Shown here: in pieces, positions 47,094 to 55,814 of the stretch
Layout of the letters: each line of letters starts with the position of its first letter
Numbering within the stretch: the stretch's first letter is position 1
Assembly: GCF_028890485.2 (NCBI RefSeq)
Contig: NZ_JARCHV010000002.1
Coordinates: forward strand, 372,001 to 436,000
Reading direction: 5' to 3'
DNA from: Planococcus sp. SK3692
GTDB taxonomy: Bacteria; Bacillota; Bacilli; Bacillales_A; Planococcaceae
DNA length: 64,000 nucleotides
The notes under the pieces: model-generated
The model's database searches: none
The model's input: only the letters and a program-made list of their open reading frames with translations
Told to the model about the DNA's origin: nothing
Made by a program: the position numbers and the translations under genes

Positions 47094-47250
47094 AGCTGAC
47101 CACTGGGGGAGCCGGGATTGACTGGCTGAGACGAGCGAATGCTTGGACCCCTTGAACCTGATCTGGACCATGCCAGCGTAGGGAAGTGGTACGTATGCTT
47201 CCTTTTGTCTGCATACACCGCTTCCCCATGGGAAAGCGGTGTTTTTTTTA
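47094..47250 (+). promoter_or_regulatory. TPP riboswitch with antiterminator/terminator before lipM-lipA
   Basis: Complete THI-box aptamer at about 47099-47190: P1 arms ACCACT (47099-47104) and AGTGGT (47185-47190); conserved GGCTGAGA, ACCTGATCTGG and ATGCCAGCGTAGGGA are intact. Downstream, GGGAAGTGGT (47181-47190) can pair with ACCGCTTCCC (47217-47226) to make an antiterminator that excludes P1. The alternative hairpin ACACCGCTT.../...AAGCGGTGT (47215-47242) plus T8 is the terminator. TPP binding should favour termination. The first gene after it is lipM. Confidence 0.92.
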
Positions 47251-47293
47251 TGGGCTTTGGAGTCATGCATAAGCTGAGAGGAGTTGAGATATT

Positions 47294-48130
47294 TTGGAGG
47301 AAACATGGGGCTATATGGAGTCGGGGCTTTGCACGCCGGCGCACAATATGGCAATGGACGAAGCATTGATGAACTGGCAGCGCAAGACCAGCATGAAGCC
47401 TGTGCTCAGGTTTTACGGATGGGCGCCAGCTGGAGTATCAGTGGGGTTTTTTCAGAAACTGAATGGCAGCATCGATCTCGAAAAAGCTGCGCAAATGGGC
47501 ATTCCTTTGGTCAGGAGGCAGACCGGCGGGAAAGCCGTACTTCATGATCAGGAATTGACTTACAGCGTGGTGATTCCGGAACATCATCCATCCATGCCGA
47601 AATCAGTAAAGGAAGCGTATTTGGTGATTTCCAGAGGCTTGCTTGAAGGCTACCGCAATCTCGGGATTCATGCACAATTGGCTGCTGAAGCCAAGCGGTC
47701 GAAAGAATCTTCGGCGGTATGTTTTGAAGAACCGTCCTGGCATGAACTGACTGTTGAAGGCAGGAAAGCGGCAGGAAGCGCACAGACAAGAAAACAAGGC
47801 ATCATTTTGCAGCACGGTTCGATTCCGCTGCAGCTTGATGAAAACCGTTTGTTCGAATTGTTCGTCTATCCGAGTGAAGCGGTGAAGGAAAGGGCGCGCC
47901 AAGCTTTTCGCACACGCGCCGTCGCGATCAACGAGCTAATGCCACAGCCAGCAAGTTTAGAAGAAGTCCAGCAGGCATTCAAGGATGGATTTGAAACGGG
48001 GCTTGGCATCCGTTTGGAAAAATTCGAACCGCCAGCTGAATTGCTGGAAGAAGTACGTGTGCTCGAAGCCAAATACGCAAGCGAAGAATGGAACCACCGA
48101 CGAGAAGAGAAAGGGGAACTTATGCGATGA
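47294..48130 (+). CDS. lipM: Octanoyltransferase LipM (lipoyl biosynthesis)
   Basis: Cofactor-transferase-fold enzyme of 278 residues moving octanoyl from acyl carrier protein to GcvH in lipoyl assembly. Compared with LipM of Bacillus, it has ETWGYMESG at the start, [19 protein letters not shown] near residue 74, Cys143 ([19 protein letters not shown]), and [16 protein letters not shown]. Cys143 is the acyl-enzyme thiol. TTG 47294 is chosen because it gives the conserved N-terminus; GAGAGGAG lies 10 nt upstream. An out-of-frame ATG at 47304 behind a GGAGG is not used. The gene follows a TPP riboswitch and ends by ATGA overlap with lipA. Confidence 0.88.
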
Positions 48131-49071
48131 CAAAAACCAAGCAGCGTGAACGTAAACCCGAATGGCTGAAAGTGAAATTGAACACGAACGAAACGTATAA
48201 TGATCTGAAGAAATTGATGCGTGAGAAAAACTTGAACACGGTATGCGAAGAAGCAAAATGCCCGAATATCCATGAATGCTGGAGTGAACGCCGCACCGCG
48301 ACTTTCATGATCCTTGGAGATACGTGCACAAGAGCGTGCCGGTTTTGCGCCGTCAAAACCGGCTTGCCGAACGAACTCGATTGGGGCGAGCCGGAGCGCG
48401 TAGCGGAATCGACGGAAATCATGAACTTGAAGCATGTCGTCGTTACAGCGGTGGCCCGCGATGATTTGAAAGACGGCGGGGCTGCAGTTTTTGCGGAAAC
48501 CGTCCGTGCTATCCACCGGAAAATGCCGGAAACGACGGTTGAAATTTTGCCGTCCGATATGAAAGGCGATTACGAGAGCCTTCATATGTTGATGAGCAGC
48601 GAGCCGGATATCTTCAACCACAATATTGAAACAGTACGCCGCTTGACGAAACGCGTCCGGGCAAAAGCGACATATGACCGCTCGCTGGAATTGCTGCTGC
48701 GAGTCAAGGAGATCGCGCCGCATGTGCCGACCAAGTCGAGTATTATGGTCGGGCTCGGCGAAACGAAAGAAGAGATTATCGAAGCGATGGACGATCTGTT
48801 GGCACACAAAGTCGACATCATGACGATCGGCCAATATCTGCAGCCGACGTTGAAGCATCTAGACGTTGTCCGTTATTACCATCCGGATGAATTCCAGGAA
48901 TTAAAGGAAATTGCATTAGCGAAAGGCTTCAAACATTGCGAGGCTGGCCCAATGGTGCGTTCTTCTTATCACGCGGATGAACAAGTGAACGAAACCGCTG
49001 TCCAAAAACGCATCAAATACATGAAAGGCGTCGAATCCACAGGCGCAAAAATCGATCGCATCGAGTTCTGA
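48127..49071 (+). CDS. lipA: Lipoyl synthase
   Basis: Radical-SAM enzyme of 314 residues that inserts two sulfurs into protein-bound octanoyl to give lipoyl. The auxiliary cluster Cys are Cys40, Cys45 and Cys51 ([13 protein letters not shown]) and the radical-SAM motif is Cys67, Cys71, Cys74 (CTRACRFC). The later GLGETKEEI and MTIGQYLQP are typical. ATG 48127 is inside the lipM stop (ATGA), so coupled; it is followed 42 nt later by a DUF4825 lipoprotein gene. The octanoyl precursor is made by lipM, so the two genes form one pathway. Confidence 0.95.
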
Positions 49072-49113: not shown

Positions 49114-49611
49114 TTGAGAACAACACTGGCTGCGGCGATGCTGTCATTTACTGCGCTATTTATCACGAGCGCCTGCAGCCCATTGCTGGCATCAGAACAA
49201 CCAGACCTCTTTGAATACGAAGGGGCGGAAGTTGGAAATAACAGCGCTGTCTTTAACACCCTTAATCGCCTCACGGGTGCACAGCATTTTAATGGGTTTG
49301 AACTGGAGACAAAACAACGGCCATATGGAATCATCGCTTCGTACGATTGGGCAGAAGCTGAGTCATCGAACAAGGAAGCTGCGGTTCACAATGCGACTTA
49401 CTTGTTTACGCTGATCGACAACGTGGAGTGGATTCAATTTGACTTCGACACAGGAGCAGGCGTGGAACAGTATCGGTTGTCAAGAGAACAATTACAAGAT
49501 TGGTACGAGCTTGATTTGACCGGAATTGATGAGCAAAAGAAATTGGAAGAGCTGCTCAAAGAGCATTTGGATGAAGATCAAAAAATCGATGAACTATTAA
49601 CAGAATCCTAA
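49114..49611 (+). CDS. DUF4825-family lipoprotein
   Basis: A 165-residue exported lipoprotein: signal peptide with lipobox FITSAC (Cys21), then a domain with YEGAEVGNNSAVFNTLNRLTG and a KPYG-like QRPYGIIASYDW stretch, typical of DUF4825. Function unknown. The start is TTG 49114, 6 nt after AGAGGAGGG. It may be co-transcribed with lipMA, but the spacing of 42 nt is not conclusive. A terminator follows. Confidence 0.78.
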   Translation: MRTTLAAAMLSFTALFITSACSPLLASEQPDLFEYEGAEVGNNSAVFNTLNRLTGAQHFNGFELETKQRPYGIIASYDWAEAESSNKEAAVHNATYLFTLIDNVEWIQFDFDTGAGVEQYRLSREQLQDWYELDLTGIDEQKKLEELLKEHLDEDQKIDELLTES

Positions 49612-55283: not shown

Positions 55284-55458
55284 AAAAAGCCCTCTTTTTT
55301 TCTTATACGCAAGAAAAAAGAGGGCTCCAAAATATGAAACCATCTCATTCTCATCTTCCAAATGCTGATGCATTTGCAGGAATTAGCACAGTTTTCGCTG
55401 ATTTGCGAATCTGCTGCCGAAATGTCATAGGGCCTGTCCCTCGATTTCTCTGGATAAG
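55284..55458 (-). promoter_or_regulatory. SAM-I riboswitch (S-box) before metN, minus strand
   Basis: Minus strand opens CTTATCC-AGAG at 55458 and shows GAGGGAC-AGGCCCTATGA, GTGCTAATTCCTGCA, and a terminator with AGCCCTC arms and T5 (55326-55284). The part usually reading CCCGGCAACC is altered to TTCGGCAGC, but the remaining conserved segments are present. SAM should terminate transcription of the metNPQ operon. Promoter: TTGACT (55520-55515), 17-nt spacer, TAGAGT (55497-55492). Confidence 0.9.
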
Positions 55459-55590
55459 AAAGTGATGTAAGCTATTCAATTCGTGATTCCTACTCTATTT
55501 CGAAATAGGGAAAAAGTCAACAGCTTTGGTGAAAAAACTTTTAGGTTCAACTGGCACTTAATAGTAGTTAAAATTTTTTGACAAATACAC

Positions 55591-55648: not shown

Positions 55649-55814
55649 CTCTTATCACGAGAGGCGGAGGGAATAGGCCCTACGATGCCCGGCAACCAAC
55701 AGGCTCATGTCTGGAAAGGTGCTAAATCCTACAGCGCGCATTTGCGTCGCTGAAAGATAAGAGGAGGCAAATCCGTATATGACGGCCCTCTTCTTTCTGA
55801 AGAGGGTCTTTTTG
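55649..55814 (+). promoter_or_regulatory. SAM-I riboswitch (S-box) before metY, with terminator
   Basis: P1 arms CTCTTATC (55649-55656) and GATAAGAG (55756-55763). Conserved core includes GAGGCGGAGGGA, GGCCCTACGATGCCCGGCAA and GGTGCTAAATCC. The terminator hairpin CCCTCTTC (55786-55793) / GAAGAGGG (55799-55806) with T5 follows. SAM excess should stop transcription of metY-metX. Confidence 0.95.

Follow-up and report, generated by a model that had tools for sequence, protein, structure and literature searches.

The window (the whole 64,000-nucleotide stretch of DNA analysed here) carries, on its plus strand, a TPP (THI-box) riboswitch aptamer followed directly by two genes of lipoate assembly, lipM and lipA. 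In a covariance-model search RF00059 matched at 47095-47201 (+) with 78.3 bits against a gathering score of 54.3 (E 9.4e-14), and the alignment runs end to end, over model positions 1-105 of 105. The initial annotation of this DNA, made from the sequence alone, had called a complete THI-box aptamer here, and the covariance search that it had proposed bears this out. The P1 helix that it had described, ACCACT with AGTGGT, was likewise found by sequence and constrained folding, with the 5' strand at 47099-47104 (+) and the 3' strand at 47185-47190.

P1 is coupled to the expression platform, in that its 3' strand lies inside the 5' arm of an antiterminator (47181-47198, +) to which a terminator is the alternative. 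The 3' arm of the antiterminator (47211-47226, +) overlaps the 5' arm of the terminator, as judged by folding and by pairing in homologues. The core of the antiterminator pairs GGGAAGTGGT at 47181-47190 with ACCGCTTCCC at 47217-47226 through 9 Watson-Crick pairs and 1 G-U pair, and it is extended by six more pairs between GTATGC (47193-47198) and GCATAC (47211-47216); the ten pairs had been annotated correctly, and the actual antiterminator is longer than was claimed. The intrinsic terminator (47215-47249, +; fold and homologue pairing) consists of a stem at 47215-47242 and a U run at 47243-47249. Here the annotated stem stands and the annotated run of eight T residues does not, as the run comprises seven and the eighth is the last base of the stem. 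(Note that a simple terminator scan gave no call for this terminator, the stem of which holds a bulged A.) Energy folding gave -17.9 kcal/mol for the terminator hairpin and -23.8 kcal/mol for the antiterminator fold. For the complete leader, the computed energies of the antiterminator (-60.7 kcal/mol) and of P1 plus terminator (-59.2 kcal/mol) are nearly balanced. For a leader lacking the 3' arm of the terminator, the free fold is the antiterminator, at -52.0 kcal/mol, and forcing P1 gives -45.1 kcal/mol, a cost of ~7 kcal/mol.

The lipM-lipA operon and its genome

The first gene of the operon, a lipM-like octanoyltransferase gene at 47294-48130 (+), begins with a TTG codon, in agreement with the ATG or TTG starts of its homologues, and encodes a protein of 278 aa that matches Pfam LplA-B_cat with 130.7 bits and BPL_LplA_LipB with 70.8 bits. 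NCBIfam matches include no LipM equivalog (the best is LplA_large, with 117.3 against 480), and the nearest solved structures are lipoate-protein ligases. A SAVCF-type cysteine motif was present in 53 of 53 LipM rows read, a set drawn from 57 rows (46 by a first pattern and 7 with lysine for proline); we take this cysteine to be the active site of LipM and its role to be that of an octanoyltransferase, as in B. subtilis LipM. From the LplA-B_cat domain and the SAVCF motif, we assign the gene as LipM. The second gene, lipA (48127-49071, +), encodes lipoyl synthase (TIGR00510, 403 bits against a cut-off of 310.25). Its ATG at 48127 overlaps the lipM stop by 4 bases, and a longer lipA frame from 48088 also exists. 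The LipA translation contains CX4CX5C and CX3CX2C clusters, the latter in CTRACRFC, which presumably have the roles such clusters have in other LipA proteins. This lipA is the sole copy in the genome over the TIGR00510 cut-off, the other match reaching 30 bits. That octanoyltransferase and lipoyl synthase genes follow the leader with no thiamine gene intervening is confirmed: no gene lies between the leader and lipM-lipA. A canonical member of the TPP regulon has a gene of thiamine synthesis, salvage or transport downstream, and here lipM-lipA stand directly downstream instead. (A DUF4825 gene at 49114-49611 begins 42 bases past lipA, and there is no such frame at the matching place in genomes G015 and G036.)

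The source genome (3.54 Mb) has named close relatives that include Planococcus citreus, P. maitriensis and P. maritimus, in which LipM is 95%, 94% and 88% identical, respectively, to that of the window (the named P. citreus relative is DSM 20549). It contains five TPP sites, among them the lipM leader. One (G000:C5:638085-638186) precedes a tenA-thiM-thiD-thiE-thiW operon; the remaining three lie before thiT, before a YkoF-family gene, and before an NMT1-type ABC transporter, beside which is an MTH1187-like protein (49.2 bits, under the cut-off of 54.7). Elsewhere in the genome are a lipoate ligase (TIGR00545, 465.8 bits, cut-off 280) and a LipL-like amidotransferase (407.7 bits, cut-off 400). 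Since these are present together with lipM-lipA, salvage and synthesis of lipoate are both possible. The window also holds two divergent SAM riboswitches, at 55348-55460 (-) and 55649-55763 (+), ~190 bases apart and each above its gathering score; the minus-strand one faces an ABC transporter set of a NIL-domain ATPase, a permease and an NlpA lipoprotein, as in methionine transporters.

Distribution and conservation of the TPP-lipM-lipA arrangement

LipM searches covered 46 genomes of the genus and 250 genomes of the family, 247 of which matched at 1e-40. The TPP-lipM group comprises 28 genomes, 26 from the genus (of 46) together with G074 and G056, the two genomes sampled from another genus, with LipM proteins 53-100% identical to that of the window. 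At every one of the 28 loci of this LipM lineage (17 + 11) the aptamer is above the RF00059 gathering score by covariance model, the THI-box core lies <190 bases 5' of the lipM start, and lipA is directly 3' of lipM. The operon occurs in at least five different neighbourhoods among the 15 of the 28 genomes looked at. In one of the 28 genomes (G019) the lipA of the TPP operon (G019:C1:2684393-2685273) is split into two overlapping frames, by a frameshift or a sequencing error, and in another (G034, L120 2034-8246) a separate TPP site and gene run lie ~3 kb before TPP-lipM-lipA, the run encoding TMP synthase-type, DAO-type oxidase, ThiG, ThiF, PRK08642-type reductase and luciferase-like proteins.

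The ordinary lipM and lipA of the Bacillales specify the same enzymes as the TPP operon, but the two genes are unlinked and, at the loci examined, without a TPP site. They lie apart in 19 of the 20 remaining genus members; in the twentieth (G045), which has lipM, no lipA was found (best match 23 bits, in a 74-aa frame), possibly reflecting a lipoate-dependent species or an assembly gap. In the ordinary arrangement of G006, gcvT-gcvPA-gcvPB and then an opposite-strand rhodanese gene come before lipM, and lipA is elsewhere. (At this locus, L130 1307-6990, a glycine riboswitch precedes gcvT-gcvPA-gcvPB and lipM comes further on, on the same strand; with the opposite-strand rhodanese gene between them, lipM need not share the glycine riboswitch.) A TPP aptamer was found at 0 of the 41 ordinary LipM loci examined in the family (0 of 20 in the genus and 0 of 21 in other genera). 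Scans of ~900 bases upstream gave no RNA family at its gathering score for 16 ordinary genus lipM genes and 4 loci of the family f41 (described below), nor for 19 ordinary lipM loci from 12 other genera and 1 f41 locus, and there was no TPP match at 4 further genus lipM loci, at G242 or G070, or at 7 ordinary lipA loci. This upstream RNA comparison covers 69 of the 247 LipM matches of the family sample. A loose THI-box pattern occurred at 6 of 22 loci from other Bacilli, with 0 within 400 bases upstream of lipM; the covariance model was applied to a minority of these loci. A comparison of lipM upstream regions across the Planococcaceae, which had been suggested along with the initial annotation, thus places the aptamer at 28 of 28 loci in one lineage and at 0 of 41 examined in the other. 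Together with the anatomy of the leader, the 28 related loci support the main claim of that annotation, that a TPP riboswitch stands before lipM-lipA rather than before a thiamine gene.

The leader bears signs of selection. Aptamers compared across seven genomes of different clades share 72-90% identity, whereas the 105 bases upstream share 47-64% (48-54% when shuffled). Pairing and covariation were read from 12 leaders of the main platform type, which is found in 21 genomes, the other 9 leaders being near-identical to that of the window. In these 12 homologues 96.5% of terminator cells are paired, against 91.6% in shuffles, and the terminator covariation score is 0.247 against 0.151; in both cases 0 of 500 shuffles were as high, with the note that ancestry remains in the control. 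Two-sided changes occur at 3 of 12 terminator pairs, and 357 of 500 shuffles show as many; pair types are fewer than in shuffles, all 500 of which reach as many. Of the three pairs changed on both sides, two go from A-U to G-C, each in one and the same set of four related leaders, and the third does not pair in 4 of the 12 leaders. In the antiterminator 95.8% of cells are paired in the 12 homologues and covariation is unremarkable (69 of 500 shuffles as high). The evidence from terminator covariation is thus thin, and for this reason the retained aptamer is the main argument for selection and the terminator the second. In 7 of the 28 genomes the platform is different: the terminator folds at -10.7 to -15.9 kcal/mol and the antiterminator is harder to discern.

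Origin of the operon and its leader

Across 398 genomes sampled from the class, the highest LipM score outside the family was in the family f41, and a search of 159 f41 genomes gave 35 LipM matches at 1e-90. The lipM-lipA operon of f41 (G509 and relatives) is of the same lineage as the TPP operon, with LipM 53-64% and LipA 77-84% identical to the window proteins and lipA directly after lipM in 30 of 30 loci read. Unlike the TPP operon, the f41 operon lacks a TPP match at 34 of its 35 loci over the stretch examined (for G631, ~300 bases upstream). Ordinary LipA proteins of eight Planococcus genomes are 72-74% identical to window LipA. Trees group the TPP operons with the f41 operons at 100/100, apart from ordinary Planococcus genes, and in the LipM tree ordinary Planococcus LipM falls among the LipM of other Bacilli. 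In the 26 TPP-lip genus members neither an ordinary LipM nor a second lipA over the cut-off was detected. These findings suggest that an f41-type lipM-lipA operon was transferred and displaced the ordinary unlinked genes in part of Planococcus and in another genus. A single origin of the TPP-lipM-lipA clade, imposed by holding its 16 TPP rows as one clade, is not rejected (p-AU 0.093). The free tree places f41 between two parts of the TPP clade (97/96), another tree leaves the parts separate in a polytomy, and a LipM-only tree joins them at 85/49. (Plasmid carriage was considered as a route of spread and set aside: 72,556 plasmid records contain no LipM match at 1e-30.)

In aptamer and in terminator region the lipM leader is most like that of the tenA-thiM-thiD-thiE-thiW operon of the same genome, the difference being that the tenA leader controls thiamine salvage genes. 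In a tree of 46 aptamers (FastTree, without support values), 17 lipM aptamers fall with the tenA-leader class, a class that a model places before tenA in this genome, in G040 and in G026. When 10 lipM leaders were compared with 12 TPP sites, the ten lipM aptamers were 71-85% identical to six tenA-class aptamers of the genus and 57-70% identical to other sites. The 110 bases downstream of the lipM aptamers gave local scores of 14-34 to the tenA class, 7-20 to other sites and 8-10 when shuffled; the 110 bases upstream showed no clear match to the tenA class in the same comparison. To some extent this downstream similarity is unavoidable, since an antiterminator has to be complementary to the conserved GGGAAG end of the aptamer; one non-tenA site that shares this end scores 10-20 downstream. 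The simplest account is that the lipM leader is probably a copy, by duplication, of the leader of the tenA-thiamine operon, so that the present arrangement would consist of such a copy joined to a horizontally acquired lipM-lipA operon. (A lipoate-binding aptamer, that is, a new ligand class, is ruled out, as the RNA is a standard RF00059 aptamer 71-85% identical to the tenA class.)

One f41 genome (G690; L164, 3427 down to 544, minus strand) has a TPP riboswitch, a PRK08642-type reductase gene, lipM and lipA in that order, with a gap of 39 bases between the reductase gene and lipM. As an ancestor this arrangement is disfavoured: its aptamer is 64-69% identical to the lipM aptamers and does not group with them, and holding G690 with the 16 TPP-lipM rows as a clade is rejected (p-AU 0.017). 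By these comparisons the TPP-lip association of G690 is apparently independent of the Planococcus one.

TPP and the probable control of lipoate assembly

We consider it likely that a TPP-responsive OFF riboswitch, acting via transcription termination, governs lipM-lipA, the genes of de novo lipoate assembly. TPP binding stabilises P1, and OFF is the ordinary logic of TPP leaders in Bacillota. When TPP is absent, 47181-47198, which holds the 3' strand of P1, would pair with 47211-47226 and the terminator would be blocked. A TPP-bound aptamer would lock P1 and free 47215-47226 to form the terminator hairpin, and transcription would end before lipM. Because the antiterminator and P1-plus-terminator energies are nearly balanced, TPP stabilising P1 would tip the RNA to termination. 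We infer the OFF polarity from this base pairing, from which it follows that lipoate assembly should go up when TPP is scarce.

The reason for this regulation is far less firm than the regulation itself. The thiamine pyrimidine synthase ThiC was found in 0 of the 46 genus genomes (13 of 14 control genomes matched), and with ThiC lacking, TPP may report outside vitamin supply. At low TPP lipoate would be made de novo, and at high TPP synthesis would be lowered, lipoate then being salvageable by the lipoate ligase. The reason that we find most likely, though we put it forward tentatively, is that TPP stands for outside vitamin supply in the absence of ThiC and that the cell makes less lipoate de novo when it can probably salvage it. 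Full-length ThiG was present in 9 of the 46 genus genomes, 6 of the 26 with the TPP-lip arrangement versus 3 of the 20 others. (ThiG was counted only above 350 bits; a 23-bit cut-off would give 46 of 46 through weak partial matches. This genome has no full-length ThiG, the best match being a 29.1-bit partial one over model positions 174-224.) The lip genes of the 20 other genus members, which lack ThiC as well, have no TPP site. Thus, thiamine dependence does not predict the arrangement, and a link between thiamine auxotrophy and the TPP-lip arrangement, which we considered, finds no support. Moreover, a cell with no lipoate from outside would be harmed by shut-off of its only lipA, unless control were incomplete.

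Several other explanations were weighed against selected control of lipM-lipA by TPP. The initial annotation had offered as a fallback that the riboswitch is left over from a lost thiamine gene, which would then have stood between aptamer and lipM. The gene order of G690 indicates that such an intermediate can exist, but the G690 aptamer lies outside the lipM aptamer group, and with the THI-box core <190 bases before lipM there is no room for a gene in any of the 28 loci. Moreover, since the tenA leader is still present elsewhere in the genome and is the closest likeness, a copy is likelier than a leftover at lipM, and the fact that the aptamer stayed alike where the upstream sequence mostly did not argues against an idle remnant. 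We do not favour this explanation, which seems to us decidedly unlikely, and note that a copied thiamine gene may have been lost following duplication of the leader. It could also be that the copied tenA leader gave lipM-lipA a promoter and that TPP control is tolerated without a selected role, as the resemblance of the two leaders and the failure of thiamine dependence in the genus to predict leader presence would allow. A promoter donor need not keep its aptamer, however, yet RF00059 is above its gathering score in 28 of 28 loci, and it is the 105 upstream bases, where a promoter must lie, that are mostly near shuffled identity between clades, which the aptamer is not. We regard a borrowed promoter as very unlikely.

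A further explanation accepts the regulation and assigns it another purpose. The same 2-oxoacid dehydrogenases use both TPP and lipoate, and a shortage of TPP might call for more lipoylated E2 or GcvH so that flux is held. This accords with the established biochemistry of the complexes and has the same regulatory anatomy, but extra lipoyl groups would be no relief for a shortage of the E1 cofactor, and the polarity is opposite to a simple rule of co-supply; we think it unlikely. The riboswitch might, on the other hand, be skipped, with lipM-lipA transcribed mainly from another promoter, as would be understandable for the sole lipA over the cut-off, the full shut-off of which is risky. A consensus scan shows no promoter-like site between the terminator and lipM, but it shows none upstream of the aptamer either, so that this negative says little. 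We judge such a bypass to be highly improbable.

Returning to TPP as a report of outside vitamin supply, we can outline, as a tentative proposal, a circuit across vitamins. Bacteria that depend on imported thiamine or its precursors would gauge the outside supply of B vitamins by TPP, and a copied thiamine riboswitch would switch their only lipoyl synthase on for de novo lipoate assembly when vitamins are scarce and down in favour of salvage when they are plentiful. TPP sites and lipM-lipA would have come together at least twice, once in Planococcaceae, where the leader would have been duplicated, and once in another family, by way of a TPP-reductase unit. The arrangement suggests that the supply of one vitamin (B1, as TPP) sets the production of another cofactor, lipoate.

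TPP riboswitches belong to the best-studied regulators made of RNA, and thiamine genes are what they are taken to control. Conserved, selected-looking TPP control over how another cofactor is assembled would bring lipoate into the TPP regulon, would give a handle on the balancing of 2-oxoacid dehydrogenase cofactors, and would exemplify riboswitch duplication onto a transferred operon. The lipM leader shares with the TPP riboswitch before B. subtilis tenA the full aptamer, the logic of P1, antiterminator and terminator and, by anatomy, the OFF polarity. In the open-licence literature, no link between a TPP riboswitch and lip genes appears among the matches listed, with which the novelty claimed in the initial annotation for lipoate assembly as a target is consistent; an unremarked entry in the RegPrecise or Rfam tables is possible. 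Excerpts of PMC2848557, PMC10409787 and PMC12452182 mention both topics, unrelated to each other. An excerpt of the review PMC10043782 places lipoic acid among the universal coenzymes lacking a validated riboswitch class, and here the lipoate genes stand under a riboswitch for a different coenzyme. The main text of PMC3766115, additional files apart, gives thiamine synthesis and transport as the targets of TPP riboswitches and has no word beginning 'lipo' or 'lipA'. Thus, TPP riboswitches as described have targets in thiamine synthesis and transport, whereas here the target is lipoate assembly.
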